DNA from: Neomicrococcus aestuarii
GTDB taxonomy: Bacteria; Actinomycetota; Actinomycetes; Actinomycetales; Micrococcaceae
Reading direction: 5' to 3'
DNA: 64,000 nt
Assembly (NCBI RefSeq): GCF_014201135.1
Contig: NZ_JACHDR010000001.1
Coordinates: 1,550,001 to 1,614,000, forward strand
In this document: one piece after another, positions 35,772 to 50,590 of the stretch
Numbering within the stretch: the first letter of the stretch is position 1
How the letters are laid out: each line of letters opens with the position of its first letter
Translations under genes and position numbers: made by a program
The notes under the pieces: model-generated
Seen by the model: the letters and a program-made list of their open reading frames with translations, nothing else
Databases searched by the model: none
Told to the model about the DNA's origin: nothing

Positions 35772-36884
35772 GTGACAGCAATCGTAGAGTTTAGAAACGT
35801 CAGTAAGACGTTCCCGGGAACTAAAAACTCGGACCCCGTCAAGGCCGTCCAGGATGTAACGCTGGATATTGAGGCCGGCTCCATTACCGGAATCATCGGA
35901 TACTCGGGCGCTGGAAAGTCCACCTTGGTTCGCCTGATCAACGCGTTGGAGTTGCCGGATACCGGTGATCTTCGCGTGGACGGTGCAGACCTGACCCGGA
36001 TGAAAGAACGCGAGCTGCGAACGCTTCGTTCGAGCATCGGCATGATCTTCCAGCAGTTCAACCTGTTGAATTCGCGTTCCGTGGCCAAGAACATCGAGTA
36101 CCCGCTCATTGTGGCCGGCGTGAAGGCGGAAGAACGCGCTAAGCGCGTCACTGAATTGCTGCGGTTTGTGGGCATCGAGTCCAAGCGCAATCAGTTCCCG
36201 TCCCAACTTTCTGGCGGTCAGAAGCAACGCGTGGGTATTGCGCGCGCGCTCGCCACGAACCCCAAGATTTTGTTGGCGGATGAGGCCACCTCGGCGCTGG
36301 ATCCAGAAACCACGGCGGAGGTCTTGGACCTCTTGAAGCGTGTGAACACTGAATTCGGCACCACCATTGTGGTCATCACCCACGAAATGCACGTGGTGCG
36401 CAGCATCTGCTCCAACGTGGCCGTCATGGAACACGGCAAGGTTCTCGAATACGGACCGGTCTATGACGTGTTCGCGTTCGCGAAGGAAGAAGCCACCCAG
36501 CGCTTCATCAACTCCACCATCCAGGACCGGCCCAGCCCGGAGACGGTCGCCCGCTTGCAATCGCTTCACCCCGGCACTTTCGTCACGGTGAGCATTGTTG
36601 AGTCTGCGGTTCCGGATCGCAGTGAGTACGACGACGCTGGCTCCAGTTCAGAGGCACCTGCCAGTTCCGGGGTGGCTGATTTACTCAGCCAGGCCAGCAC
36701 GGTTCGAAAGACGGTGGTGTTCGGTTCCATCACGGAGATCGCGCAGCGACCCTACGGTTCGCTCACCTACGTCTTCGACGGCCCGGACGCTGACGTGCAA
36801 CAGCTCATTGAGAGCCTTACAAGGATCACCGCAACGCAAGTCTGGGCCGATCAGCGCAGCATCTTGAAGGGAGACGCATCATGA
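35772..36884 (+). CDS. metN: Methionine ABC transporter ATP-binding protein
   Basis: Energises methionine import. The 370 residues begin with a standard ABC ATPase: Walker A GYSGAGKST near 42, Q-loop IFQQFNLL, signature LSGGQKQRVGIARAL near 146, Walker B ILLADEATSALD, and the switch His in VITHEMH. After about residue 240 comes a linker with a dispersed-repeat copy (SEYDDAGSS) and a C-terminal NIL/ACT-like domain that in MetN binds methionine and inhibits transport. GTG start; the stop overlaps metI by 4 bases. Confidence 0.95.
   Translation: MTAIVEFRNVSKTFPGTKNSDPVKAVQDVTLDIEAGSITGIIGYSGAGKSTLVRLINALELPDTGDLRVDGADLTRMKERELRTLRSSIGMIFQQFNLLNSRSVAKNIEYPLIVAGVKAEERAKRVTELLRFVGIESKRNQFPSQLSGGQKQRVGIARALATNPKILLADEATSALDPETTAEVLDLLKRVNTEFGTTIVVITHEMHVVRSICSNVAVMEHGKVLEYGPVYDVFAFAKEEATQRFINSTIQDRPSPETVARLQSLHPGTFVTVSIVESAVPDRSEYDDAGSSSEAPASSGVADLLSQASTVRKTVVFGSITEIAQRPYGSLTYVFDGPDADVQQLIESLTRITATQVWADQRSILKGDAS
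36625..36641 (+). repeat. Dispersed 17-bp word, copy 10 (core exact)
   Basis: AGTACGACGACGCTGGC: the 12-base core is exact, the end diverges. It is located in the linker between the ATPase and NIL domains of MetN, read as EYDDAG. Confidence 0.65.
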
Positions 36885-37540
36885 TCGACTGGGAGACCAT
36901 GGGGCCCCTGCTGACGCAGTCCCTCCAACAAACTCTCACCATGGTGGTCATCACCATGCTTCTTGGCGGATTCTTCGGCCTGATCATTGGCATCCTGCTC
37001 TATGCCACCCGTCCAGGGAACATCTTGCAGAACGCCGTGGTGTTCAACGTCTTGAACTTCATCATCAACGTGGTGCGACCCATCCCGTTCATCATCTTCA
37101 TCTCCCTCGTAGGACCGTTTAGCCTCTCGCTGATCGGCACGAGTATCGGCACCGAGGCGGCGATTGTCCCCATGACGCTCATGGCGTCCGTGGTGATCGG
37201 CCGCATTGTGGAGCAGAACTTGGTGGGCGTGGATCCGGGCGTGGTGGAAGCAGCTCGCGCCATGGGCTCCTCCCGTGCCCGCGTGCTCTTTGATGTGGTG
37301 TTGAGGGAATCGATTGGCCCACTGATTTTGGGTTACACGTTCGTCTTCATCGGCGTGGTGGATATGTCCGCGGTTGCCGGCTACATCGGCGGTGGTGGAC
37401 TCGGTGATATGGCCATTACGTACGGCTACCAGCAGTTCAACTACGCCGTGACCATCCTGGCCGTCGTGGTGATTGTGCTGCTGGTTCAGTTGGCGCAGCT
37501 CATTGGCAACTGGCTAGCTCGCAAGGCGCTTCACCGCTAA
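36881..37540 (+). CDS. metI: Methionine ABC transporter permease
   Basis: A 219-residue permease with five membrane helices and the cytoplasmic coupling (EAA) loop EAARAMGSSRARVLFDVVL near residue 125-145, which docks onto MetN. Ends with GGGGLGDMAITYGYQQFNY typical of MetI. Starts inside the metN stop (ATGA). Followed by a long bidirectional terminator. Confidence 0.95.
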   Translation: MIDWETMGPLLTQSLQQTLTMVVITMLLGGFFGLIIGILLYATRPGNILQNAVVFNVLNFIINVVRPIPFIIFISLVGPFSLSLIGTSIGTEAAIVPMTLMASVVIGRIVEQNLVGVDPGVVEAARAMGSSRARVLFDVVLRESIGPLILGYTFVFIGVVDMSAVAGYIGGGGLGDMAITYGYQQFNYAVTILAVVVIVLLVQLAQLIGNWLARKALHR

Positions 37541-37570
37541 ACGGACACAGCTAAAAGCTAGCAAGACAAA

Positions 37571-37615
37571 ACAGTGAAGGGACGAGGCCCACAATGGGTC
37601 TCGTCCCTTCACTGT
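37571..37615. terminator. Bidirectional terminator between metI and pheA
   Basis: Two 20-base arms (ACAGTGAAGGGACGAG... / ...CTCGTCCCTTCACTGT) pair with a single wobble around a 5-base loop. A T-rich tract follows on the minus strand. Confidence 0.88.
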
Positions 37616-37705
37616 TCACGCCAATGCTCTGATTCAGTGCGATGCTCGGTTCTCCTGCGATAGCTGGAGTGTCAGAAGCATGCGGCGTCGTCGTCCTTCG
37701 CGAAA

Positions 37706-38722
37706 TTACAGACCGTCCGTCAGCCCGCGCAACCGATCCACCCACGCGCGAGCGTCACGGTACGCTTCCTCCGAATTGTGGCGACCAAAGCTCGGCGAGA
37801 GCTTGTCCGCCGACGGGTAGGAACCCAAGAATCGGATCTCCGGCGTAATGCGGTGCAAGCCCATGAGGGCGTCCGCCATGCGGGATTCGTGCACGTGACC
37901 CTCGGCGTCCACGGAGAAGAAGTAGTTGCCCAGTCCTTCGCCCGTGGGTCGGGATTCAATGCGGGAGAGGTTCACGCCGCGGGACGCGAACTGATCCAGA
38001 ATGTCCATCAGCGCACCCGGGTGATCATCCGGCAGCGGGATGACCACGCTGGTCTTGTCGGAGCCCGTGACGGGCGGCAACGAACCAGGCAAGGACACCA
38101 ACACGAAACGCGTCACGGCGCCCGAGTTATCTTCCACGCCCGTGCGCAACACCGTGAGCGAATTCTGTTGGGCAACTAGGGGCGAGCAGATGGCGGCGTC
38201 GTACGTGACGTCCTCGTCCAGCAAGCCCAGTGCGCCCGCCGCCGTAGAGGAGGCGGGGATGAACTCAGCGTTCGGAGTGTTCTCTTCAGCCCAATAACGG
38301 CACTGCGCCCACGCGTGCGAGTGCGTTGAGATCGCCCGAATCTGCGAGAGCTCGGTAATGCCCGGACGCACGGTCAGCACAAACGTGATGGGGACCAGCG
38401 CCTCGCGTACAATCTGCAGCTTGGAGCCGTTCGCGATCGAATCGAGGGTCGCGGAGACGCCACCTTCCACCGAATTCTCGATGGGGACCATTGCCGCGCT
38501 GACGCGACCTTCGCGCACCATCGTGAGCGCCGAGTTGACGCTGCTGCACGGGAAGAAGTCCGCTTCCGCCGCGTCGGGAACTTGGAGAAGCGCGGCTTCG
38601 GTGAAGGTTCCCGCGGGTCCTAGGAACGCGTAGGAGCGGCGGTTCGCGGCGGGCACGGAAACGCTCGTTGCGGCGCGTTCACCGGGCGCAGTTGATTCGC
38701 TCGGCGCAGTTGAGTCAATCAC
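37706..38722 (-). CDS. pheA: Prephenate dehydratase
   Basis: Converts prephenate to phenylpyruvate for phenylalanine synthesis. The 338 residues hold an N-terminal variable 28-residue leader, the catalytic domain (YAFLGPAGTFTEAAL, IENSVEGGVSATLD, and the catalytic TRFVLV with Thr near residue 205) and a C-terminal ACT domain with ESRP (LSRIESRPTGEGLGNY region), the phenylalanine-binding site for feedback inhibition. Start overlaps the rhodanese stop (ATGA), so the two are cotranscribed. Confidence 0.95.
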   Translation of the reverse strand: MIDSTAPSESTAPGERAATSVSVPAANRRSYAFLGPAGTFTEAALLQVPDAAEADFFPCSSVNSALTMVREGRVSAAMVPIENSVEGGVSATLDSIANGSKLQIVREALVPITFVLTVRPGITELSQIRAISTHSHAWAQCRYWAEENTPNAEFIPASSTAAGALGLLDEDVTYDAAICSPLVAQQNSLTVLRTGVEDNSGAVTRFVLVSLPGSLPPVTGSDKTSVVIPLPDDHPGALMDILDQFASRGVNLSRIESRPTGEGLGNYFFSVDAEGHVHESRMADALMGLHRITPEIRFLGSYPSADKLSPSFGRHNSEEAYRDARAWVDRLRGLTDGL

Positions 38723-39045
38723 CGTACGGTCGGCTCCTGACCATTCTCAGACTCAAGTGGCTTGCCAGCTTCGAGCCAGGCGCCGGATCCGCCAGCGATG
38801 TTGAACGCGGTGTAGCCCTGGCCCGTGAGCCAAGCGGCGGCCTGCGCGGAGCGGCCTCCGGTACGGCAAATCACGTAGGTGTCGACGTCCGGGTCCAGCT
38901 CATCTACGCGCAACGGCAAGTCGCCGAGGGGGATGTGCACGGCGCCGGGAACGTGGCCGTGCACGAACTCGTACTCTTCGCGCACGTCCAGCACCAAGGC
39001 GTCGGCTGGAACCTGGTCCACTGAAACGGTTTCGAATTCACTCAT
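38719..39045 (-). CDS. Rhodanese-like sulfurtransferase
   Basis: A 108-residue single rhodanese domain. The active-site loop CRTGGRS near residue 70 keeps the catalytic cysteine, preceded by DVREEYEFVHGHVPGAVHIPL, the classic CH2A region. It transfers sulfane sulfur to an unknown acceptor. ATG at 39045 has GAGGTG six bases upstream. Coupled to pheA, a frequent arrangement in Micrococcaceae without a proven functional link. Confidence 0.9.
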   Translation of the reverse strand: MSEFETVSVDQVPADALVLDVREEYEFVHGHVPGAVHIPLGDLPLRVDELDPDVDTYVICRTGGRSAQAAAWLTGQGYTAFNIAGGSGAWLEAGKPLESENGQEPTVR

Positions 39046-39113
39046 GGTGGGCACCTCACTGTTCAAAAATTCTCTGAATCATCTAATCACTCAAGCCTAT
39101 AGTTGGATCCATC

Positions 39114-40619
39114 ATGACGAACCACTCGCAGCGCCTTAGTTCCCTTCCCGCCGCGTGGGAACTACGTGATGCGTTGCATCGCGAAGAGACCACGAGCGTC
39201 AAATTATTGGCTCAGTCCCTCGATCTAATCCACTCACTCAATGAAGAGTTGGGGGCTTTCGTTGCCGTAAATGGTGAAAAGGCGCTCACTGCTGCGAAGA
39301 AATACGACGCCGCTCGTTCCAGTTCCGCGCGCGACCTTCTAGGTGGGTTGCCGCTTGCGTGGAAGGACCTCATCGACGTGGCCGGGTTCCCCACCCGGAT
39401 GGGCTCGCGCATCACTCCCGAAACTCCGGTAGATCTCACGCATCCGCTGGTGGACAAGGTGACGCAGGCCGGTTCATTCACGATCGGCAAAACGGCTGTC
39501 CCCGAGTTCGGTCTCAACGCGTACTCCGAAAACGACGCGAACCCTCCGGCTCGCAACCCCTTTGACCCGAACCGCACGCCCGGTGGTTCGAGCGGCGGCG
39601 CGGCTGCCGCGGTCGCGAGCGGCATGCTGGCGGTAGCTCCCGGGAACGACGGCGGAGGTTCCGTCCGCATTCCAGCGGCGGCTTGCGGGCTCGTGGGTTT
39701 GAAAACGAGCCTGGGTTTGATTCGCGAGGACCTCATGAACGGCGCCAGCGAAGGAAAGACCCCGCTCACGGATAAGCGCGGTGCGCCCCGGCTTGCGGTC
39801 ACCGGACCTTTGGGCCGTTCAGCGTTCGATGCCGCCCTGTTGTTGGATGCGATGACCGGCGCTCGCGGATCGAACTCGTACTACGAGGTGGCGCGAACAC
39901 TGGATCCTGTCCACGCGACCTACGCGCCGAAGCACGCGAAGGACAACCCGCAAAGCGCCAAGCTCCACGGCCGCGAAGAGCCACTACACATTGCCGTTTC
40001 CACCGATTCGCCTTTTGATTCCGCCCTCGGCAGCAGCCTCTCCCCCGAATCTCTCACCGCACTCGAAGCCGGCCGCAAGCTGCTCGAGAAGGTGAGCTGC
40101 GTCGTCGTACCGGAAAAATTTGAGTATCCCGAGGACTATCACGCAACGTTCCGCACGGTGTGGACTGGAGGGCTCGCGGAGGCGCCGATTCCGGTAGAAG
40201 CGGAGGCGCTACTGACCCCGCTGGCCCGAGATTTCCGGGAATCTTCGCGCGCACAATCGGAAGAAACCAAGCAGGCTGCGGCCACGCGCTTGAGTGAGAT
40301 CGGGCGCGGATTCCGCGAAGCCTGGGGCAAGTTTGATGTGGTGCTCACGCCCGCGCTCGCATGGGAGCCGCCCGAAATCGGCTTCTTCACACGCGAGGAT
40401 CCCGAACGCGATTACGTCCTGCAATGCCAATTCACGCCGTTCACGTCCATGGTGAACGTGTCCGGGCTGCCGGCGATCGTGGTGCCCGTGAGCATCACGT
40501 CGAACGGCCTGCCGATGGCCGTTCAGCTCATTGGTCGCTTGCATTCGGAGCGGCAACTGCTCACGCTCGCCGCCGCGATGGAAGCCGCGCGCGGGCCGCT
40601 GGTATTCACCCAGAATTAA
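39114..40619 (+). CDS. Amidase signature family protein
   Basis: A 501-residue enzyme of the Ser-cisSer-Lys amidase family (GatA-like fold). The first catalytic Lys lies in LPLAWKDLIDVAGFPT near residue 83; the signature GGSSGGAAAAVASG near residue 160 gives one serine; DGGGSVRIPAAACGLVGLK near residue 185 gives the acyl-acceptor serine. No GatB or GatC neighbour is present, so this is a stand-alone amidase rather than part of tRNA amidation; the substrate is unknown. A dispersed-repeat copy falls in codons for SCVVVP. It precedes the nuclease gene by 23 bases. Confidence 0.88.
   Translation: MTNHSQRLSSLPAAWELRDALHREETTSVKLLAQSLDLIHSLNEELGAFVAVNGEKALTAAKKYDAARSSSARDLLGGLPLAWKDLIDVAGFPTRMGSRITPETPVDLTHPLVDKVTQAGSFTIGKTAVPEFGLNAYSENDANPPARNPFDPNRTPGGSSGGAAAAVASGMLAVAPGNDGGGSVRIPAAACGLVGLKTSLGLIREDLMNGASEGKTPLTDKRGAPRLAVTGPLGRSAFDAALLLDAMTGARGSNSYYEVARTLDPVHATYAPKHAKDNPQSAKLHGREEPLHIAVSTDSPFDSALGSSLSPESLTALEAGRKLLEKVSCVVVPEKFEYPEDYHATFRTVWTGGLAEAPIPVEAEALLTPLARDFRESSRAQSEETKQAAATRLSEIGRGFREAWGKFDVVLTPALAWEPPEIGFFTREDPERDYVLQCQFTPFTSMVNVSGLPAIVVPVSITSNGLPMAVQLIGRLHSERQLLTLAAAMEAARGPLVFTQN
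40095..40111 (-). repeat. Dispersed 17-bp word, copy 11 (16 of 17)
   Basis: AGCTGCGTCGTCGTACC inside the amidase gene, read as SCVVVP on the plus strand. Confidence 0.75.
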
Positions 40620-40642
40620 CCTCGGCGTGTTCGGATCGAGAG

Positions 40643-41512
40643 ATGACCACGGATAACCAGTCACTTTCCGAATCATCGACCACTAGCGGATACCAGCCCG
40701 ATTTTCTGGGCACGGAGACGGTCACGGTGCCGTCCGATCCGCGGCTGACCGTCCTGGATTACACGCACTTTTCCATTCACCAGGACACCGAACGGCGCAT
40801 GCCGGCCATCACCGCCGTGAACATTGACGGCGCGACCTTGGTGACGGACATCGAGCGCGGCAACAACTGGCGCCTGGACCCGCGATTGCCCGCCGAACAC
40901 CAGGCCGGTGAGGAGCTGTACGCGCGCAACGACATTGACCGTGGGCACGTGGTGCGGCGTCGTGATCCCGTGTGGGGTGAGCGGCAGGTCGCGACGCAAG
41001 CGAACGCGGACACCTTCCACTACACGGTCTGCGCGCCACAAGCGGGCTACTTCAACCAGTCCAAGGAGCTGTGGCTGGGCCTCGAGGACCACGTGCTCGA
41101 GCATGCAGCGACCTTCGATCAGCGCTTGTCCGTGTTCACCGGCTGCGTTTTTACAGCCGAAGATCCCAGCTATCGCGGGTTTTTGGTGCCGCGCCAATTC
41201 TTCAAGATCGCCGCGTGGAATCGCGGGGGCGAGCTGGCTGCGAGCGCGTACGTGCTGGATCAGGGCGAGGGTTTGGACATGATTCTGCGCCGCGGGCTGC
41301 GTCCCGGCCAGGAAGCGGGCGAGGACGGGCCGGGCCCGTTCAAGACCTTCCAGATCCCGGTGGCGGACGTGGCAGCGCTGACGGGATTGCCCGTGGATCA
41401 GTTGGCTGCCGCGGACGTTTTGGCGGCGACGCTTGCGCAGCGTCCTGCCTTCCCTGACGTACGACGACGCTGGATCGAGTTGAGCGGGCCGCAAGACCTG
41501 ATCTTGGGTTAG
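40643..41512 (+). CDS. DNA/RNA non-specific endonuclease (NucA/EndA-like), no signal peptide
   Basis: A 289-residue beta-beta-alpha-metal nuclease. The catalytic DRGH is at residues 99-102 (NDIDRGHVVRRRD), with the preceding YARND and the following QANADTFHYTVCAPQ segment supplying the metal-binding Asn region. Most relatives are secreted, but here no signal peptide is visible, and no immunity protein follows directly. ATG 40643 has GGATCGAGAG immediately upstream. It stands between the amidase and the protealysin-like protease in the same orientation with short gaps, so a shared transcript is likely. The C-terminal 15 codons carry a repeat copy (VRRRWIEL). Confidence 0.85.
   Translation: MTTDNQSLSESSTTSGYQPDFLGTETVTVPSDPRLTVLDYTHFSIHQDTERRMPAITAVNIDGATLVTDIERGNNWRLDPRLPAEHQAGEELYARNDIDRGHVVRRRDPVWGERQVATQANADTFHYTVCAPQAGYFNQSKELWLGLEDHVLEHAATFDQRLSVFTGCVFTAEDPSYRGFLVPRQFFKIAAWNRGGELAASAYVLDQGEGLDMILRRGLRPGQEAGEDGPGPFKTFQIPVADVAALTGLPVDQLAAADVLAATLAQRPAFPDVRRRWIELSGPQDLILG
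41458..41474 (+). repeat. Dispersed 17-bp word, copy 12 (core exact)
   Basis: CGTACGACGACGCTGGA near the end of the nuclease gene, read as VRRRWI; 12-base core exact. Confidence 0.6.
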
Positions 41513-41608
41513 GCAGCACATTTGCGTTGGCGGAGTTTTCGCTGGGACTTCTCTGGAGGGTCGGGCCGAACGGTTCTAAATGTCAGTGGGGAAGGTTTAG
41601 ATAGGGAC

Positions 41609-42862
41609 ATGGAGATCTTTTGCACCGTAGTTCCGCCGTACCTCTTGGAGAGCGTGGCGGAGGGAACGCCCGCGCCCACGGATGATCTTCGCGAGGACTC
41701 TGGAAACAGTGGGTCTGGAAACGGTGGTTCTGGAAACGAGGACTCGACTCAGGGTCCCGTTCGGAGCTTGCGACCCTCCCCTACTTCGGCTCCCGAATCT
41801 GGAGCTTCTGGCGCTCAAGGATCTGGCGTTGAAGGTTCTCAGGTCGAGGGTTCTGATTTCGGGCCGGGACTCGAGTTCATTTCGGCGGAGACCTCGGAGA
41901 TTGCTCGTCGCACGCTCGAGATTGACGAGCGGATGCGCCAAGAACGCCGCAATCCACAGCCGGAACCTTCGATCGTTCAGGTGAAGGGCACGCTGGCCCG
42001 CAAGATCTCTGACGCTAAGAACAAGGAAGTACTTCCCGGAACGCTCGTGCGCGCCGAGGGCGACGAACCCACTGAAGATGTAGACGTCAACCGCGTTTAC
42101 GACACGTTCGGCAGCATCTACGCGTTCTTGCAAAAAGTGTTGAACCAGTCCAGCATCGACGGCCACGGAGTGGCTCTCCAAGGAACCGTGCACTTCGGGG
42201 ACCACTATGACAACGCCTTCTGGGATGGCGAACAAATGGTCTTCGGCGATGGCGACGGCGAAGTTTTCGCCACCTTCACGGATTCCTACACCGTGGTGGC
42301 TCACGAACTCGGCCACGGGTTCTTGCAGTACACCACCAACTTCACCTACCAAGGTCAATCCGGCGCCCTCAACGAGTCCTGCGCCGACGTCCTAGGAACC
42401 GTGGCCGAACAGTGGGCACTGGGGCAAAGCGCTGAGGAATCCGACTGGTTCATTGGCCGCGAAGTGTTCACCCCACAGATCGCCGGCGACGCACTACGCT
42501 CCATGTCAGCACCCGGAACCGCGTACGACGACCCCTCACTCGGCGTGGACCCACAACCCGAGCACATGAGCGAATTCGTCACCACGCGCGAGGACAACGG
42601 TGGAGTTCACATCAACTCCGGCATCCCCAACCGCGCGTTCTACCTCGCGGCCACCGCGATCGGCGGAAACGTGTGGGAAGGCGCCGGTCGAGTATGGGCG
42701 GACGTCCTCTTGTCCCAAGAGCTCCCCCTCGATGCCACCTTCGTGGCTTTCGCCGAATCCACCGTGAAGCACGCGGGACGCATCTTCGGTGAAGAGTCCT
42801 CCCAGCAAGCTACTGTCCAGAAAGCCTGGGAAACTGTGGGCGTTCTCCAGCCGACGCCCTAG
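41609..42862 (+). CDS. Protealysin-like M4 metalloprotease
   Basis: A thermolysin-family protease of 417 residues without a signal peptide. It opens with the short protealysin-type precursor motif CTVVPPYLLESVAEG (PPYLL at 9-13), followed by a long Gly/Ser/Asn-rich linker of about 70 residues, unusual for the family. The zinc site is HELGH at 232-236, with the third ligand Glu in NESCADVLG near 256, and the active-site His in GGVHINSGIPN near 330. Protealysin-like proteases act in the cytoplasm or leave by unusual routes; some cleave actin. The next gene encodes a probable specific inhibitor. ATG at 41609 matches the family N-terminus. Confidence 0.9.
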   Translation: MEIFCTVVPPYLLESVAEGTPAPTDDLREDSGNSGSGNGGSGNEDSTQGPVRSLRPSPTSAPESGASGAQGSGVEGSQVEGSDFGPGLEFISAETSEIARRTLEIDERMRQERRNPQPEPSIVQVKGTLARKISDAKNKEVLPGTLVRAEGDEPTEDVDVNRVYDTFGSIYAFLQKVLNQSSIDGHGVALQGTVHFGDHYDNAFWDGEQMVFGDGDGEVFATFTDSYTVVAHELGHGFLQYTTNFTYQGQSGALNESCADVLGTVAEQWALGQSAEESDWFIGREVFTPQIAGDALRSMSAPGTAYDDPSLGVDPQPEHMSEFVTTREDNGGVHINSGIPNRAFYLAATAIGGNVWEGAGRVWADVLLSQELPLDATFVAFAESTVKHAGRIFGEESSQQATVQKAWETVGVLQPTP

Positions 42863-42894
42863 GTCTCCTCAAGCAAGTTCATTAGAGTGAAGCC

Positions 42895-43305
42895 ATGAGG
42901 GTACAAGTGACGCGGTCAGGCGGATTCGCCGGTATTTCGCGCCGCGGTGCCATCGAGTGCTCCAATGAACCAGACCTTTCGGCGCTCGTCGACGCAGCCC
43001 TCCTCGAAGCTCAGCAGAGTCAAGACCAGAACCAAAACCAAAACCAAAACCACGCGGATCATCCCCTACCTGACCCGACGCTCACGGATGATGATGGCGA
43101 GACGGAAGCTGCGTCGTCGTACTCAGAAAGAAACCGAGCCCAGCAGCACCAGCAGCGGGACCGGTACCAATGGAACATTTGGATCGGCGATGAGCAGTTT
43201 GAGTTCCCGGATTCCGAGCTGCCGGAGACGGTGAGGGTGCTCGCGGTCGAGGTTCTTAAGCATCCCGTTACGCGGCCCACAATGGATGGCGACCTGGATC
43301 ACTAA
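42895..43305 (+). CDS. Emfourin-like inhibitor of the protealysin-type protease
   Basis: A 136-residue small protein. Its start (MRVQVTRSGGFAGISRRGAI) is the hallmark of emfourin, the proteinaceous inhibitor encoded beside protealysin. The end (WNIWIGDEQFEFPDSELPETVRVLAVEVL, as a region) matches the family's last strands and helix. Between them lies an insert of about 50 residues with an (AACCAA)n stretch coding NQNQNQN and an exact dispersed-repeat copy (EAASSYS). It lies 32 bases after the protease, so expression is coupled. Expected role: keep the cytoplasmic protease inactive. Whether the insert disturbs binding is unknown. Confidence 0.8.
   Translation: MRVQVTRSGGFAGISRRGAIECSNEPDLSALVDAALLEAQQSQDQNQNQNQNHADHPLPDPTLTDDDGETEAASSYSERNRAQQHQQRDRYQWNIWIGDEQFEFPDSELPETVRVLAVEVLKHPVTRPTMDGDLDH
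43023..43053 (+). repeat. Hexanucleotide repeat in the emfourin gene
   Basis: Four to five AACCAA/AACCAG units encode Gln-Asn pairs. Because the unit is 6 bases, slippage would change length without shifting the frame. Confidence 0.7.
43107..43123 (-). repeat. Dispersed 17-bp word, copy 13 (exact)
   Basis: Exact AGCTGCGTCGTCGTACT inside the emfourin loop insert, read as AASSYS on the plus strand. Confidence 0.8.
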
Positions 43306-43344
43306 AGTGGGCACTTGCGCCGCAACAAGCGCAAAATATTGCAA

Positions 43345-44838
43345 ATGTCCCCTTCCTCAAATTCGATTGATGCGCGCACTGACGCGCCAAATGCGGCCGA
43401 AAACTCGGCATCGCAGCGCGGCTTCCTGGGTCACCCCAAGCCGCTCGCAACGCTTTTCAGCGTAGAAATGTGGGAACGCTTCTCCTTCTACGGAATGCAA
43501 GCGATCCTCGCGTACTACATGTACTACTCCGTCGCCGAAGGTGGACTGGGCATGGATCAAGCCCTCGCCGTGAGCCTTGTGGGCGCCTACGGCGGTGGCG
43601 TGTACCTCAGCACCATCCTCGGAGCATGGCTAGCCGACCGAGTCTTCGGCGGCGAGCGCGTCCTGTTCTACGCGGCCATCATGATCATGTTCGGCCACAT
43701 TGCTTTGGCGCTCTTGCCAGGTGGCGTGGGCCTCGCGATTGGTCTGGTCCTCGTGGCGATCGGATCCGGCGGCCTCAAGGCGAACGCCTCCGCGATTGTG
43801 GGATCCCTGTATTCGCGTGAAGATCCGCGCCGTGACGCCGGATTCTCCATCTTCTACATGGGCGTCAACATCGGTGGCCTGGTAGGCCCGTTGATCACCG
43901 GCTTCCTGCAGACCAGCATGGGCTTCCACTGGGGCTTCGGAGCCGCCGCCGTGGGTATGGCGCTCGGCATTGCCGTGTACGCCTCCGGACGCAAGAACTT
44001 GCCCGCCATTGCCGGCGAAGTCAGCAACCCGTTGCCTGCGAAGGAATACAAGAAGGTCGCCCTCATTGGCATCGCGGCCCTCGTAGTGATTGTTGCCGTG
44101 TTCGCGATTCGCCTCGTGACCCTGGACAACCTGGCCACCGTGATCTCCTACGTAGTGGTCATCGCCGCAATCATCTACTTCACCGTGATCCTGCGCAGCA
44201 AGAAGGTCAACACGGTAGAGCGCAAGCGCGTCTTCGCGTTCATCCCGCTCTTCATTGCGTCCGTGGCGTTCTGGGCACTGTTCCAGCAGCAGTTCACGTT
44301 CATCGCCGTGTACTCGGATGAACGACTTGACCGCAACCTCTTCGGCTGGGAAATGCCGGCCTCGTGGGTGCAATCCATCAACCCCGTCTTCATCATCATC
44401 TTCGCGGGCATCTTCGCGACGATGTGGACCAAGATGGGCCAGCGCCAGCCGTCCACTCCGCTGAAGTTTGCACTGTCTTTGTTCATCATTGGCGTTGCGT
44501 ACTTGATCTTCATTCCCATGGAGTCTTTGGAAAAAACGCCACTCTTGGTGCTCGCTGGCATCTTGCTACTGTGCACCTTCGCTGAGTTGTTCTTGAGCCC
44601 TATCGGCTTGTCCATCTCCACTAAGCTGGCACCGGAAGCTTTCCGCACCCAGATGATGGCCTTGTTCTACTTGTCCGTCTCTTTGGGAACCACGCTTTCT
44701 GGCGTGCTGGCGGCGTACTACCAGCCTGGCCAGGAGATCGCGTACTTCGTGGCTCTGGGCGCTGGCTGCATCATCTTGGGCGTTGCCCTGTTGGTGGCCA
44801 CGCCTGCTATCAAGCGCCTCATGGGCGGCGTGAAGTAG
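43345..44838 (+). CDS. POT family peptide (oligopeptide:H+) symporter
   Basis: A 497-residue major-facilitator transporter with 12-14 membrane segments. The N-terminal LFSVEMWERFSFYGMQAILAYYMYY (region) contains the ExxERFxYY-type proton-coupling motif of POT/PTR transporters (here EMWERFSFYGM). The helix 4-5 region GLKANASAIVGSLY and the later LSPIGLSISTKLAPEAFRTQMM are also family hallmarks. It takes up di- and tripeptides with protons. ATG at 43345 is chosen over a TTG 30 bases earlier; no strong ribosome site precedes either. A terminator hairpin follows. Confidence 0.92.
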   Translation: MSPSSNSIDARTDAPNAAENSASQRGFLGHPKPLATLFSVEMWERFSFYGMQAILAYYMYYSVAEGGLGMDQALAVSLVGAYGGGVYLSTILGAWLADRVFGGERVLFYAAIMIMFGHIALALLPGGVGLAIGLVLVAIGSGGLKANASAIVGSLYSREDPRRDAGFSIFYMGVNIGGLVGPLITGFLQTSMGFHWGFGAAAVGMALGIAVYASGRKNLPAIAGEVSNPLPAKEYKKVALIGIAALVVIVAVFAIRLVTLDNLATVISYVVVIAAIIYFTVILRSKKVNTVERKRVFAFIPLFIASVAFWALFQQQFTFIAVYSDERLDRNLFGWEMPASWVQSINPVFIIIFAGIFATMWTKMGQRQPSTPLKFALSLFIIGVAYLIFIPMESLEKTPLLVLAGILLLCTFAELFLSPIGLSISTKLAPEAFRTQMMALFYLSVSLGTTLSGVLAAYYQPGQEIAYFVALGAGCIILGVALLVATPAIKRLMGGVK

Positions 44839-44872
44839 CCTCTCCGGGGCTTCTCCTCACGCCGCAGAAATG

Positions 44873-44930
44873 ACGTGGGCGGTGTTCTTCATCAGCATTC
44901 ATTGCTGGTGGAGCGTCGCCCACGTTTTCT
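44873..44930. terminator. Terminator between peptide transporter and cupin
   Basis: ACGTGGGCG and CGCCCACGT arms with a T-rich tail on the plus strand; convergent genes on both sides, so it may serve both. Confidence 0.7.
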
Positions 44931-45225
44931 ATTTCTTGAGCTCTATCTCCACGAAGATGATGACTTCATCAGTGTCATTGGCAACGTTGTGCTCCACCCC
45001 AGCAGGCCGCGTGTAGGACTGGCCGGCCTCGATTTGGAACTTATGGCGGAGCGCGTCAGGGGTTTCGATGGTGAGCTCGCCGCTCGTTACGGGAACCACG
45101 ATGTAGTCGGTCTCATGCACGTGCCGCTTCGTCTCCGTGTGAGGTTCGAAGCGCCACTGCGTGACGCGCGCGTTCGCGTCATCTTGTTGCACCGTTGAGG
45201 TTGCTGGAAGTCGAATACTCGTCAT
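44929..45225 (-). CDS. Small cupin-domain protein
   Basis: A 98-residue single-domain cupin. The first motif RHVHETDYIVVPVTSGELTI gives two His metal ligands near residues 34-36, and the second motif YTRPAGVEHNVAND contributes another His near 76. Such small cupins may be isomerases or sensors. ATG at 45225 with GAAGGG upstream is preferred to a start ten codons earlier. No genomic clue to substrate; monocistronic. Confidence 0.8.
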   Translation of the reverse strand: MTSIRLPATSTVQQDDANARVTQWRFEPHTETKRHVHETDYIVVPVTSGELTIETPDALRHKFQIEAGQSYTRPAGVEHNVANDTDEVIIFVEIELKK

Positions 45226-45311
45226 GCCACGGCCCTTCTTTCGCTGAATCACCAATGTACGTCAAGCAACAATTACCTGACTTCCCACCCGATTTCTGAC
45301 AAGCTGAACTT

Positions 45312-46955
45312 ATGAGCCAGAATCGTGCGGGCACTCGTGCCCTTCCAGAAGATCTCATCGATGTTGATGCAGTAGTTTCTGCCTACTACGACGTTCACCC
45401 GGATCCTTCAGAACCCACCCAGCGCGTGGCGTTCGGAACCTCGGGACACCGCGGGTCCTCCTTGAAGACCAGCTTCAACGAAGACCACATCTTGGCCATC
45501 ACCCAGGCGATCGTCGACTACCGCCGCGGTCAAGGCATCACCGGGCCGCTCTTTTTGGGCAAAGACACGCACGCGCTCTCCGACCCCGCGCAAGACAGTG
45601 CCCTAGAAGTTCTTGCCGCGAATGACGTCACGGTTCTCTGGGAGAGCGACGGCGACTACGCACCGACTCCCGCCGTGTCCTTCGCGATCCTCAGCTACAA
45701 CGCCGACCCCGCACACACCTCGCAAGCGGACGGCATCATCATCACCCCCAGCCACAACCCCCCAGCTGACGGTGGCTTCAAGTACAACCCTCCTCACGGC
45801 GGCCCTGCGGATTCGGACGCCACGTCCTGGATTGCCCGCCGCGCCAACGAACTGATCGAGGGCAAGCTCGCTGAAGTAGAGCGAGTGCCGCTGGCTCAGG
45901 CGAAGCTGAGCGACGGCGTCGTACACCATGATTTCCGGGCCCCGTATGTCAATGCGCTGCCGGAAGTACTCAACATTTCCGCGATCAAGGACGCCGGAAT
46001 CCGCATTGGCGCGGACCCGATGGGCGGCGCATCCGTGGATTATTGGGGCGCGATTGCCGAGCATCACCACCTCAACCTGACAGTGGTCAATCCGCTCGTG
46101 GATCCGCGCTGGTCCTTCATGACGCTGGACTGGGACGAGAAGATCCGCATGGACTGCTCCAGCCCGCACGCCATGGCGAGCCTGATTGGGCAGAAGGACA
46201 AGTTCGATATCGCCACCGGTAACGACGCCGACTCGGACCGGCACGGCATCGTCACTCCGGATGGTGGGCTCATGAACCCCAACCACTACTTGTCCGTGGC
46301 GATCGATTACTTGTACCGCAACCGGACGTCCTGGCCGCAGGATGCGGGCGTGGGAAAGACCTTGGTGTCCTCCTCCATGATTGACCGCGTGGCCGCCGGT
46401 TTGGGCCGCAAGCTCGTGGAAGTTCCCGTGGGCTTCAAGTGGTTTGTTCCCGGATTCCTTGATGGGACCGGCGTTTTTGGCGGCGAAGAATCCGCCGGCG
46501 CGAGCTTTGTCCGCTTTGACGGCCGCCCGTGGTCTACGGATAAGGACGGCATCTTGCTAGCGCTCTTGGCGTCCGAAATTCAGGCCGTCACGGGCCAGTC
46601 CCCCAGCCAGCTCTACCGCGGCCTGACGGAGAAATATGGCGAGCCTGCCTACGCTCGCATCGACGCTGCCGCCACGGTGGATCAGAAGGCGCGATTGGGT
46701 AAGTTGAGCCCCTCAGACGTCACCGCCGACCAGCTCGCGGGCGAGACCATCACGGCCAAACTCACTGAGGCGCCCGGAAACGGCGCGTCCATTGGCGGCT
46801 TGAAGGTGACCACCGAGAACGCATGGTTTGCCGCGCGGCCGTCCGGCACAGAGGACGTCTACAAGATCTACGCGGAGTCCTTCAAGGGCGCCGAGCACTT
46901 AGCTGAGGTCCAGCGTGACGCCAAAGCGATCGTGGATTCGGTGTTGGCGGAGTAG
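45312..46955 (+). CDS. pgm: Phosphoglucomutase (alpha-D-glucose phosphate-specific)
   Basis: Interconverts glucose-1-phosphate and glucose-6-phosphate for glycogen, trehalose and cell-wall precursors. The 547 residues show the N-terminal [10 protein letters not shown], the catalytic phosphoserine loop [11 protein letters not shown] near residue 143, the Mg-binding DADSDRHGI near residue 305, the sugar-binding GEESAGASF near residue 393 and the phosphate-binding [12 protein letters not shown] near residue 515. Full length for the family. Confidence 0.96.
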
Positions 46956-46989
46956 TTGACGCGGCCAACCGCGGCCACTCGTCCGGATT

Positions 46990-47028
46990 GTTGCGTGATC
47001 GTACGTTCAGAGACGACGATCACGCAAC
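46990..47028. repeat. Perfect 13-bp inverted repeat after pgm
   Basis: GTTGCGTGATCGT (46990-47002) and ACGATCACGCAAC (47016-47028). It could be the pgm terminator, though no T tract follows. Confidence 0.65.
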
Positions 47029-47324
47029 GCTGGCTACGGGCCGATGAAATGAACCCTGTTAAGGGCAACCGATCGTAGCAATACTTGCGGACTAGAGCTC
47101 GTTTTTCCTAGGAAAACGAGAGTCCAGCGACGATTCCCTCGCTTCACTCTGTGGAAACGCAACAATCGCTACGGGTTTCGGCCGATCAGCCCACCACTCC
47201 GAGTGGGCCAGCGGCATGGAGTGCAACTATCACTACGCCTCGATGGATGCGCTGAGACGGCGACTCAACAATCGCTACGTGTAGATGGCACGGAATCAGG
47301 GAAGCGCGCCCGAAAACAACAATG

Positions 47325-47366
47325 CCCGCCGCAAGACTTCCCAAAAGGGAGTCCCGAAGCGGGCAA
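47325..47366. terminator. Long two-stage hairpin
   Basis: Outer TGCCCGC/GCGGGCA and inner GACTTCCC-AAAA-GGGAGTC stems, with 5-base internal bulges on both sides. It could end transcripts from either neighbour or be a structured RNA. Confidence 0.5.
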
Positions 47367-47661
47367 AGCGGTGACCGCGGACTCCACTGAAAGTGGCCCG
47401 CGTGTGTTGGGGGGTATACACGCGGACCACCATCGGTTGAGTCCGAGATCCTAGGAACGGATAGGAGGCTCATCATCAGCCAAGTGTTCAAAGATCTGCT
47501 GGGATCTGTCCGTTTCCGGCGAACGCTCGTAGATTCAACAATAACAAAACGGCCCCAAAAATCCAAGACTTACACAGTACCGGGCGTACCGCGAGCCTTT
47601 GACTAGGGCTCATTCAGAAAATTTTGCGACAAATAACAGCATTATGGAACTGTATGTTGTT

Positions 47662-49203
47662 CTACAAAGCGCGCTTCACCATGGTGGATTTAGCCCATCC
47701 ATACGGCGGATAAACCGGCTTGAGCGTATCCACCATGGTGGTCTTCGCCAAAGTGGGTCGTAGCTGGGAGAACGTGTCGAACCCATATTTGCCGTGATAG
47801 TTGCCCGTGCCCGAGTTTCCAACGCCGCCAAACGGCAGATTCGTCACGCCAGTTTGCAGGATCGCCACACCAATTCCGATACTGCCGGCGCGCACGTGAT
47901 CCTCGAAGATCGCATGCAAACGAGGCCGCTCGGAGAACAAGTAGGCTGCGAGAGGATCGGAGCGGTTGCCAATGAAATCGATGGCCTCGTCCACGTTCGC
48001 CACACGAATGATCGGCAAGATGGGCCCAAAGATCTCCTCTTGCATCACCGGCGATGCCGGATCAACATTCTTCAGAATGGTAGGCGCCACATAGCGATGT
48101 GCGCGGTCCACGATTCCACCAGCCACCACGTCGCCGTCCGCCAAATACCCGGCGAGACGGTCCACATGGGATTCGTTCACAATCCGTCCGAAGTCCTTTG
48201 AGGAGCTCGGATCCTTGCCATAGAACTCGGCGATGGCCCGCGGCAAGTGCTTTTCCAACTCATCCGCAGCTCGCCCCACGGCAAGCACATAGTCCGGCGC
48301 CACACAGGTCTGGCCGGCGTTGGTGAACTTCGCGAAAGCGATGCGCCGAGCAATCGCCGGCCAGTTTCCGTCAACCACCACCACAGGGCATTTACCGCCG
48401 AGTTCAAGGGTGACGGGCGTGAGCTGCTGCGCGGCAGCCGCGTAGACCTTCCGGCCAATGCGCTCGCTACCGGTGAAGAAGATGTGATCCCACTTCTGCT
48501 CGAGAAGTTCCGCGGCAACGTCGGCGCCGCCAGTCACGACGGCAACCGCACGGTGGTCCAGATACTGCGGAACCAAACGCTCGAGCAAAGCGCTCACGGT
48601 GGGCGCGTTTTCTGACGGCTTGATCACCGCACAGTTTCCCGCGGCAATCGCGGAGACCAGCGGGATGAGCAGGTTGTTCACCGGATAGTTCCACGGCCCC
48701 ATGATCAGCACTAGCCCCAACGGCTGCGGCTCTACCTTGGCGACGGCCGGCTGGAAGGCGATCGGCATGCGCTGATGCTGCGCACCCATCCACTCGGTTA
48801 AGTACAACTGCGCGAGCTTGACCTCGTTGCGGACCATGCTCAGCTCCGTGAGTCGGGCTTCCACGGCGGACTTCCCAAGATCCTGGGCTAAAGCAGTAAC
48901 GAAGTCTGATTCGTGCCGGCTCATCATCCGTTCGAACGCCTTGAGCTGCGCGGCCCGGAACTTGCGAGTCACGGCGATGCGTTCGCGGGCTCCTTCGCGC
49001 AAGTGCGCGACGGTCTCCGCGACGCCCAAATGCTTGGTGGCCTCGGGGACAACGTCTAGCTCCACTTCCTCCGGTGAGGCTTCTGCCTCTTCGTGGATGG
49101 GCGCCAGCTCCGTTTCGATTGGCGTCTCATCGGCCACGCTATCCTCGCGGGTTTCGTGTCCGGAAGCCAGGGTGCGGTCTTGAGCTGCGTCGTCGTACTT
49201 CAT
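47662..49203 (-). CDS. Aldehyde dehydrogenase family protein
   Basis: A 513-residue NAD(P)-dependent aldehyde dehydrogenase of the class 3 / coniferyl-aldehyde type. NAD-binding GPWNYPVNNLLIPLVSAIAAGN and GSERIGRKVYAAAA, the catalytic Glu in LELGGKCPV near residue 275 and the catalytic Cys in FTNAGQTCVAP near residue 308 are all present. A hydrophobic-free acidic extension of about 55 residues precedes the enzyme. ATG 49203 is followed at once by a dispersed-repeat copy (KYDDAA). Likely oxidises fatty or aromatic aldehydes; substrate not fixed. Confidence 0.9.
   Translation of the reverse strand: MKYDDAAQDRTLASGHETREDSVADETPIETELAPIHEEAEASPEEVELDVVPEATKHLGVAETVAHLREGARERIAVTRKFRAAQLKAFERMMSRHESDFVTALAQDLGKSAVEARLTELSMVRNEVKLAQLYLTEWMGAQHQRMPIAFQPAVAKVEPQPLGLVLIMGPWNYPVNNLLIPLVSAIAAGNCAVIKPSENAPTVSALLERLVPQYLDHRAVAVVTGGADVAAELLEQKWDHIFFTGSERIGRKVYAAAAQQLTPVTLELGGKCPVVVVDGNWPAIARRIAFAKFTNAGQTCVAPDYVLAVGRAADELEKHLPRAIAEFYGKDPSSSKDFGRIVNESHVDRLAGYLADGDVVAGGIVDRAHRYVAPTILKNVDPASPVMQEEIFGPILPIIRVANVDEAIDFIGNRSDPLAAYLFSERPRLHAIFEDHVRAGSIGIGVAILQTGVTNLPFGGVGNSGTGNYHGKYGFDTFSQLRPTLAKTTMVDTLKPVYPPYGWAKSTMVKRAL
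49183..49199 (-). repeat. Dispersed 17-bp word, copy 14 (exact)
   Basis: Exact AGCTGCGTCGTCGTACT covering codons 2-7 of the aldehyde dehydrogenase gene, read as KYDDAA. Confidence 0.8.
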
Positions 49204-49267
49204 GAAATGAACTCTACCCACCGCACGTAGGCAACAAGTGTCCGCCTCACGCACTACTCTTAAGCGC

Positions 49268-50590
49268 GTGAATGAACGCAACGCACTGGGATTCGGTTGG
49301 ACACTGCACGGGGATGGGAAAACCATTCGCCCGGGATCGGTGGTGGCACCGGACGAACGTCTGAGCTGGCCGCTGACGGCGAGCATCGGCGTGCAGCACA
49401 TCATGGCGATGTTTGGCGCCACGGTGTTGGTGCCTACGCTGACCGGCTTCCCCGTGACCACCACCATTCTCTTCACGGGTGTGGGCACGTTGCTCTTCCT
49501 TTTGATCACGCAGGGCAAGGTGCCGAGCTACCTCGGTTCGTCCTTCGCGTTCATCGCCCCCATTGGCGCGGCCATGAATCAGCACGGGATTGGCGGTGCG
49601 CTCGGCGGATTGGTCATGTCCGGCGTGGCGCTGTTCTTGGTGGGATTGATTGTTCAGAAATCCGGTGTGGGTTGGATTCACGCTCTCATGCCGCCGGTGG
49701 TGATGGGCACGATCGTGGCTGCGATCGGGCTGAATTTGGCCTCCGCCACCACCACCGCCATGCAGGAAGTCCCTCTGACCACGTTCGTGACGCTGGCCGC
49801 CGTGGTCATTTCTGCCGTGCTTTTCAAGGGCATGCTGGGCCGTTTGTCCATCCTGGTGGGCATTGTGGTGGGTTACATCGTGGCGCTGTTGCAGGGTCAG
49901 GTGGACTTCACGCCCGTGGCCGAGGCCGGCTGGGTGGGCCTTCCGCCGTTCCATTTGCCCGAGTTCCACGCGAGCTTGTTGCCACTGTTCCTTCCCGTGG
50001 TGTTGGTGTTGGTTGCCGAGAATATCGGTCACGTGAAGACGGTGGCCCTGATGACGGGCCGGGATCTGGATGGTAGCTACGGACGGGCTTTGATGTCCGA
50101 CGGCGTGGCCACGGCTCTCGCAGGAAGCTTCGGCGGATCCGGAACTACTACATACGCCGAGAACATTGGGGTCATGGCTTCCTCGAGGGTTTACTCTACC
50201 GCGGCTTACTGGGTTGCGGGCTCGGTGGCCATTTTGCTTGCGTTCTTGCCAAAGTTCGGCGCGCTCATCTCGACGATTCCAGCGGGCGTTTCCGGCGGTG
50301 CCGGCATTGTGCTGTACGGAATGATCGGCATCATGGGTGCACGCTTGTGGGTGCAGAATGAGGTGGACTTCTCCAACCCCATTAACCTCATGACGGCCGG
50401 ATCTGGCCTGATTATTGCCATCGCCAATCCAGTACTCACCCTCGGTGGAGCGCAATACGGTGGCATCGCTCTTGGAACCGCGGCAACGCTTCTCATCTTC
50501 CACGTCATGCGAGCCATCGCTCGAGCACGCGGCACGGAGCCAACTGCCATTGCTGAGGACTCAGGAGTAAATCCGGGCAAGCTCGGCTAA
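49268..50590 (+). CDS. Uracil/xanthine permease (NCS2 family)
   Basis: A 440-residue nucleobase:proton symporter with about 14 membrane segments. Family hallmarks are ASIGVQHIMAMFGATVLVP near the start, PSYLGSSFAFIAPIG, the NAT-signature region VLVAENIGHVKTV near residue 245 (Glu essential in UraA), and SGGAGIVLYGMIG. Most similar to UraA-type uracil carriers. Start uncertain: GTG at 49268 or GTG at 49238. Divergent from the aldehyde dehydrogenase. Confidence 0.9.
   Translation: MNERNALGFGWTLHGDGKTIRPGSVVAPDERLSWPLTASIGVQHIMAMFGATVLVPTLTGFPVTTTILFTGVGTLLFLLITQGKVPSYLGSSFAFIAPIGAAMNQHGIGGALGGLVMSGVALFLVGLIVQKSGVGWIHALMPPVVMGTIVAAIGLNLASATTTAMQEVPLTTFVTLAAVVISAVLFKGMLGRLSILVGIVVGYIVALLQGQVDFTPVAEAGWVGLPPFHLPEFHASLLPLFLPVVLVLVAENIGHVKTVALMTGRDLDGSYGRALMSDGVATALAGSFGGSGTTTYAENIGVMASSRVYSTAAYWVAGSVAILLAFLPKFGALISTIPAGVSGGAGIVLYGMIGIMGARLWVQNEVDFSNPINLMTAGSGLIIAIANPVLTLGGAQYGGIALGTAATLLIFHVMRAIARARGTEPTAIAEDSGVNPGKLG

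Follow-up and report, generated by a model that had tools for sequence, protein, structure and literature searches.

A predicted nuclease-protease-emfourin gene triad in Neomicrococcus aestuarii

In Serratia, protealysin is encoded in the same operon as emfourin, an inhibitor described as binding the protease in a 1:1 complex, and protealysin is reported to cleave its substrates, FtsZ and RecA among them, only when emfourin is absent (PMC9505478). According to a further account, protealysin accumulates as an inactive precursor that is activated or processed after cell lysis, and a PPL motif in a short propeptide serves as the criterion for protealysin-like proteases (PMC6778150). The role of these proteases is unsettled, with virulence, competition and self-digestion all under consideration. 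Proteases have also been linked to nucleases: a proteolytic cascade deploying NucA was proposed where NucA is encoded with a trypsin-like peptidase (Kaur et al. 2020, PMC7159879), and activation of an MBL nuclease, a proenzyme opened by its partner trypsin-like protease, is presented as shown by Tuck et al. 2025 (PMC12799240).

Here we analyzed a locus within the window, that is, the whole stretch of 64,000 nucleotides of Neomicrococcus aestuarii DNA. A preliminary description had treated a protease gene and an emfourin-like gene as the unit. The pairing of these two stood, but the adjoining upstream Endonuclease_NS gene had been overlooked, and the unit is larger in 10 of the 295 genomes of the organism's family that were searched.

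Table 1. Coordinates of the three genes and their features in the window
Feature	Position	Strand	Basis
Endonuclease_NS (NucA/EndoG-like) nuclease, 289 aa, predicted	40643..41512	+	Pfam PF01223; PDB; tree of triad nucleases
Protealysin-like M4 metalloprotease, 417 aa, predicted	41609..42862	+	Pfam M4/M4_C; PDB 2vqx
PPYLL, protealysin-type propeptide motif, residues 9-13	41633..41647	+	No change at either Pro or either Leu across 11 aligned sequences (window included)
Gly/Ser-rich linker, residues 24-95, from PPYLL to the catalytic part	41678..41893	+	Longest among 158 distinct sequences
HELGH zinc site, residue 232	42302..42316	+	No variation in the His-Glu-Leu-x-His columns across 11 aligned sequences
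Emfourin-family protein, predicted protealysin inhibitor, 136 aa	42895..43305	+	PF20242; profile match to proteobacterial emfourins
RSGGFAGI, emfourin motif, residues 7-14	42913..42936	+	Sequence and alignment
Variable-length loop with NQ repeats, residues 46-89	43030..43161	+	pLDDT blocks 55-74, residues 51-90
Genus-specific dispersed word GCTGCGTCGTCGTACT in the emfourin loop, read in frame	43108-43123	+	Window and genome word counts

The protease and its emfourin-family neighbour

As judged from its sequence, the protease is a protealysin-like M4 enzyme. Pfam reported M4 (PF01447, E 6.6e-23) and M4_C (PF02868, E 4.2e-50), both above the cut-off, and the closest solved structure was PDB entry 2vqx (E 2.5e-94; named a metalloproteinase in the entry), which we take to be protealysin. 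The reading frame was found as first described, with an ATG at 41609, PPYLL at residue 9 and HELGH at residue 232. The PPL motif of protealysin-like proteases is thus present, within a propeptide that is itself lengthened by the linker. By reading, neither a signal peptide nor a hydrophobic N-terminal stretch was evident. The propeptide family PF16485 (43 positions) was not listed for the protease at E up to 10; the linker splits the propeptide, and the HMMER filters drop weak matches.

This linker of 72 residues contains 15 Gly, 14 Ser, 5 Pro and 3 Asn, which agrees in length with the 70-residue Gly/Ser/Asn linker noted initially, but in composition it is a Gly/Ser linker with little Asn. The distance from PPxLL to HExxH is 224 residues here, the largest in a pattern search that gave 158 distinct sequences (minimum 147, median 159, runners-up 192), giving approximately 65 extra residues; near relatives have lengthened linkers as well, with distances of 192 in L034 and 179 in L032. 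As a side observation, emfourin matches of genus g6 (L003, L005, L008, L012) adjoin M4 proteases with a longer C-terminal part, and the PPxL pattern was not found in these four proteases, the frames of which are cut by the locus edge. M4 proteases were also met in plasmids and phages, and nucleases on plasmids.

The emfourin ATG, at 42895, lies 32 bases after the protease stop, as had been noted. Its product was assigned to the emfourin family as a weak member: hmmscan gave a significant PF20242 match (E 1.8e-8, 35.1 bits against a cut-off of 27), the outcome on which the preliminary description had made its reading depend. The match falls in two stretches, the best at residues 5-55, while a six-frame search of the genome with PF20242 did not report the gene, probably because the long loop splits the match. 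When a profile of 27 actinobacterial emfourins led by that of the window was aligned by hhalign with a profile of 10 proteobacterial ones, the two matched with a probability of 94.5 and E 8e-8; a Pectobacterium member of the latter profile matched both PF20242 and the solved structure 6zyg (E 3.2e-32), the entry name of which is "Protealysin-associated protein". RSGG contributes its Arg and its two Gly to the five columns that were invariant among the 27 sequences, and the Asp preceding the third strand is another. The RSGGFAGI motif is present, although it does not open the protein as had been claimed but lies at residues 7-14. Pfam, PDB and hhalign upheld both identities, and a chance resemblance was rejected since Pfam, PDB and the conserved neighbourhoods agree.

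The AlphaFold model of the emfourin-family protein had a mean pLDDT of 81 and a pTM of 0.65. Confidence was high in the core (pLDDT 89-96 by ten-residue block over residues 1-50 and 91-120), lower in the loop (pLDDT 55-74) and weak in the tail. Its elements follow the order strand-strand-helix-helix-strand-strand-helix, as in the modelled emfourin half of a natural fusion. Searches with the model returned a best E of 0.35 in Foldseek and a best Z of 5.1, to an unrelated protein, in VIA-align 2; the solved emfourin 6zyg was in neither list, an outcome that speaks neither for nor against the fold.

The loop that separates the RSGG motif from the third strand has 74 residues and ranks third in length among 126 distinct emfourins matched by pattern (median 38; L140 and L141 reach 76). 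Three other emfourins (L140, L141, L035) have loops in the range of 71-76 residues. The NQ repeats and the dispersed word of the reported insert are present, but the excess is about 36 residues rather than 50. Both spots vary in length across relatives, which contradicts the earlier view that both members are remodelled, and special remodelling was rejected as a novelty for this reason. The linker and the loop appear by these comparisons to be extremes of variable spots, at the long end of ordinary variation, and most likely serve as flexible tethers, not as new functions.

The word in the loop, GCTGCGTCGTCGTACT, was found at 23 places in the window at up to 3 mismatches, compared with 0.78 expected by chance. 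Across genomes, exact 15-mer copies of GCTGCGTCGTCGTAC(T) numbered 80 in this genome and 30 in the sister species, against at most 2 in each of 37 other genomes searched, and a reversed control of the word had 0 copies in both the window genome and the sister species. The copies showed no clear strand bias (37 vs 43) and were more frequent near 1.5 Mb on the contig of 2.83 Mb (Rayleigh p ~8e-4). Two genome copies match 33 and 58 bases around that of emfourin. A mobile-element origin of the emfourin insert was found unsupported, as 20 window copies of the word share little past approximately 16 bases by eye. A further copy, at window 40096-40111, falls inside the amidase gene, and the sister species conserves it (L060 832-847).

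Distribution of the pair and of the triad

In total, PF20242 matches were found in at least 80 of the 295 family genomes, a lower bound since this search misses the window's own gene, and a protease relative at E 1e-30 or better was found in 136. A separate named scan gave at least 542 stretches encoding a protease relative; among the best 80 of these, which were kept as named loci, emfourin adjoins the protease in 76. Sixty-six of the 80 were identified by an HMM seeded with motif-bearing locus sequences, and 10 further loci, all proteobacterial by record title, by a second profile; 9 of these 10 built that profile and match it by construction, and L156, the sole one run against Pfam, was confirmed. 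Emfourin was not shown in the remaining four of the 80 (L153, L185, L200, L209). Carriers of the pair include Streptomyces, Pseudomonas, Agromyces and Actinomadura, and in L001 (147-1770) the order is reversed, with emfourin upstream of the protease. Its frequency in family genomes and named loci indicates that the protease-emfourin pair is ordinary and already known in kind.

Protease and emfourin share one open frame in seven relatives: L038, L042, L148 (Humibacillus), L162 (Micropruina), L176 (Agrococcus), L202 (Knoellia) and L205 (Nostocoides). M4, M4_C and Emfourin all scored above the Pfam cut-off in the six fusions scanned; L162, the translation of which contains an unknown residue, was left out. 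The halves are mostly joined by Gly/Ser/Pro/Ala-rich linkers. Fusion of proteins that are neighbours elsewhere supports direct contact within a cognate pair. The model of the L205 fusion (pTM 0.65) had a low-confidence linker and left the docking of inhibitor on protease unplaced; the fusions are nevertheless ready-made single-chain complexes for structural work.

The gene upstream of the protease matched PF01223 in Pfam (E 2.6e-41, scanned from 40652), and its product resembles EndoG/EXOG distantly in PDB (E ~1e-3); no obvious signal peptide was seen. Relatives of this nuclease occur in 55 of the 295 family genomes. By coordinates, a nuclease lies directly upstream of the protease in 10 of the 295, from three genera (G000, G132, G147, G081, G007, G234, G206, G134, G103, G037), and emfourin lies directly downstream in all ten by an HMM built in this analysis. 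For the nine other triad emfourins Pfam listed PF20242 alone, in four cases above and in five below the cut-off (22.6 to 30.2 bits). On this basis of gene order and homology, the nuclease, protease and emfourin are regarded as a conserved triad in these ten genomes. In G081, nuclease and protease occupy a single open frame of 809 aa (L225 4134-6560), apparently through a frameshift close to the C-terminus of the nuclease, whether genuine or introduced by sequencing.

No other nucleases of the family are as similar as those of the ten triads, at 57% or more identity; elsewhere in the order, identity reached up to 58% over shorter stretches, and the protease was found in none of the 24 newly fetched order loci (some from the family itself) within 1.5 kb flanks. 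In a tree of 32 rows, all ten were placed on one side of a 99/94 branch, opposite 20 solo homologues, and seven alignment columns fully separate the two groups. Most strikingly among these columns, triad nucleases have a private Val-Cys in place of Asn-Ala before PQ: among 47 distinct nuclease segments found by pattern, Val-Cys occurred in 6, all from triads, and Asn was kept in 41. The replaced Asn presumably corresponds to Asn110 of Serratia nuclease. The DRGH box and a later Asn and Glu, which we take to be the active-site residues, are invariant in the nuclease alignment, window included. As a further observation, four long family proteins carry an Endonuclease_NS C-terminus (L243 2243-4501, L244 2399-4603, L245 619-2685, L246 696-2813); Pfam placed a Trypsin_2 domain on L243 and L245, and L244 and L246 are alike by reading.

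Among the best 80 of at least 542 stretches, a nuclease was found within the fetched flanks of only 1. Since most pairs have no nuclease beside them, the nuclease is dispensable for the pair. A nuclease joined to protealysin and emfourin was not found in the literature at title and abstract level, in a search that left the main emfourin papers outside; the partner looks like an undescribed addition to a known pair.

The chromosomal slot was compared with the sister species and with other genera. In the only same-genus genome compared, none of the three genes was found. The sister genome aligns with the window as far as 40600 and picks up again at 43420; 164 bp separate the two matches there vs approximately 2.8 kb in the window, and, judged by eye, similarity returns in the final codons of emfourin. 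Because the match skips the whole block, the two species differ in having or lacking the three genes as a set. Twelve genes of the window were compared with 20 loci taken from other genomes, of which 18 (g4, g7 Sinomonas, g23 Paeniglutamicibacter) kept at least one window neighbour near the protease, by Pfam names prephenate dehydratase, rhodanese, amidase, transporter, phosphoglucomutase or aldehyde dehydrogenase, usually in the order prephenate dehydratase, rhodanese, amidase, protease and then phosphoglucomutase; window neighbour genes were in neither L241 nor L242. Seven of the loci (L232-L234 of g4, L235-L238 of g7) have the pair in this neighbourhood without the nuclease. That the slot is common to other genera makes loss in the sister likelier than gain here; loss of the whole block from the sister is most likely, and horizontal gain by the window species is, with one sister genome compared, the less likely course.

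By Pfam, the nine flanking genes scanned in the window (35772-49518) belong to metabolism or transport, and none is a sensor, delivery or STAND gene. PADLOC gave no match for the nuclease, protease or emfourin; Rfam over 39000-46000 and a scan for sigma-70 promoters and terminators gave nothing informative, and PHROGs nothing beyond a weak nuclease match.

Proposed working and rival readings

The arrangement suggests a three-gene operon that would yield a NucA-type nuclease, a protealysin-like zymogen and emfourin, none with an obvious export signal. In the living cell, emfourin would bind the protease 1:1 and keep it silent, as expected from its family, so that the protease would be silenced by its propeptide and emfourin together and be freed when the cell breaks. 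Upon lysis or damage, the protease would mature and escape emfourin, and protease and nuclease could then jointly degrade protein and nucleic acid of the cell itself or of a neighbour. We infer co-transcription, inhibition, timing and the cooperation of nuclease and protease, and we consider it somewhat probable that a cytosolic zymogen protease held by emfourin is deployed together with the nuclease after lysis or damage. This model is favoured because the triad is conserved, its nucleases group together, fusions exist and the sister species has no such block. It is weakened by the emfourin's weak fit to its family, by the scores below the cut-off in five of the nine other triad emfourins, by the lack of a nuclease in most pairs and by the lack of window neighbours in L241 and L242. 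A nuclease added to a protease and its inhibitor suggests that protein and nucleic acid are destroyed together, and the triad could put two self-destructive enzymes under one brake.

A possible, though in our judgement doubtful, explanation is that the protease and emfourin alone are functionally linked and that the nuclease is a passenger of an old gene order. The seven g4 and g7 loci that keep the pair in the same neighbourhood without a nuclease are what such a history predicts. However, the family sample contained no triad-type nuclease apart from the pair, the triad nucleases have private residue changes near the active site, and all three genes are absent together from the sister species.

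Rather unlikely, in our estimate, is a gated nuclease, in which the protease would cleave and thereby activate the nuclease as a suicide or antiphage effector with emfourin as the safety catch. The triad-group nucleases, found beside protease and emfourin in ten of ten cases in the family sample, are consistent with this, as are the NucA cascade and the proenzyme nuclease of another type cited above and the fusion of Trypsin_2 to nuclease relatives. On the other side, inspection by eye of 9 aligned triad nucleases and 20 solo homologues showed no large insertion specific to the triad that might serve as a gate, PADLOC recognized none of the three proteins, and the flanking genes include no sensor. 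The specific version, in which a metalloprotease zymogen, in place of a trypsin or caspase, gates a NucA-type nuclease in a suicide or defence module with emfourin as the co-encoded brake, is less likely again; if true, it would give bacteria an equivalent of a protease-nuclease death pathway that has its own inhibitor.

Delivery of the protease to neighbouring bacteria, with emfourin protecting kin as an immunity protein, has been proposed for Serratia protealysin (PMC9505478), but it seems improbable here, as reading showed no export signal and Pfam identified none of the nine flanking genes scanned as a delivery gene. Least credible is that emfourin has drifted and lost inhibition, the long loop being a mark of decay: the modest family score and the NQ repeats and DNA word in the loop would fit, but the frame is intact, the Arg and two Gly of RSGG and the Asp are invariant in all 27 sequences, the predicted core is confident and ordered as in the fused relative, and other triad emfourins score lower still.

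Comparison with known systems

The order of a nuclease gene upstream of a protease gene is shared with the Hachiman, AVAST and canu pro-nuclease pairs (Tuck et al. 2025). Those pairs, as described in PMC12799240, combine an MBL nuclease with a trypsin-like or caspase protease, whereas Endonuclease_NS stands beside M4 here and, by eye, the nuclease has no large gate insertion. Assignment to the protease-gated MBL nuclease pairs was rejected on the basis of these enzyme types and the PADLOC result.

System 3 of Kaur et al. 2020 likewise has an Endonuclease NS nuclease adjoining a peptidase, and trypsin-nuclease fusions occur among the family relatives of our nuclease. The peptidase of the present locus is M4, however, with a predicted dedicated inhibitor, and the nine flanking genes include no STAND gene; membership in System 3 was rejected because the partner is M4 and not trypsin-like.

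With the protealysin-emfourin (pln-m4in) operon of Serratia proteamaculans the locus shares an M4 protease with a PPL-type precursor and no evident signal peptide, followed directly by an emfourin-family gene. It differs from pln-m4in in the nuclease gene upstream and in that inhibition is here a prediction, and its linker and emfourin loop exceed those of the median relative by approximately 65 and 36 residues, respectively. The triad could offer a compact system for testing how emfourin is used in soil-type actinobacteria such as Sinomonas.
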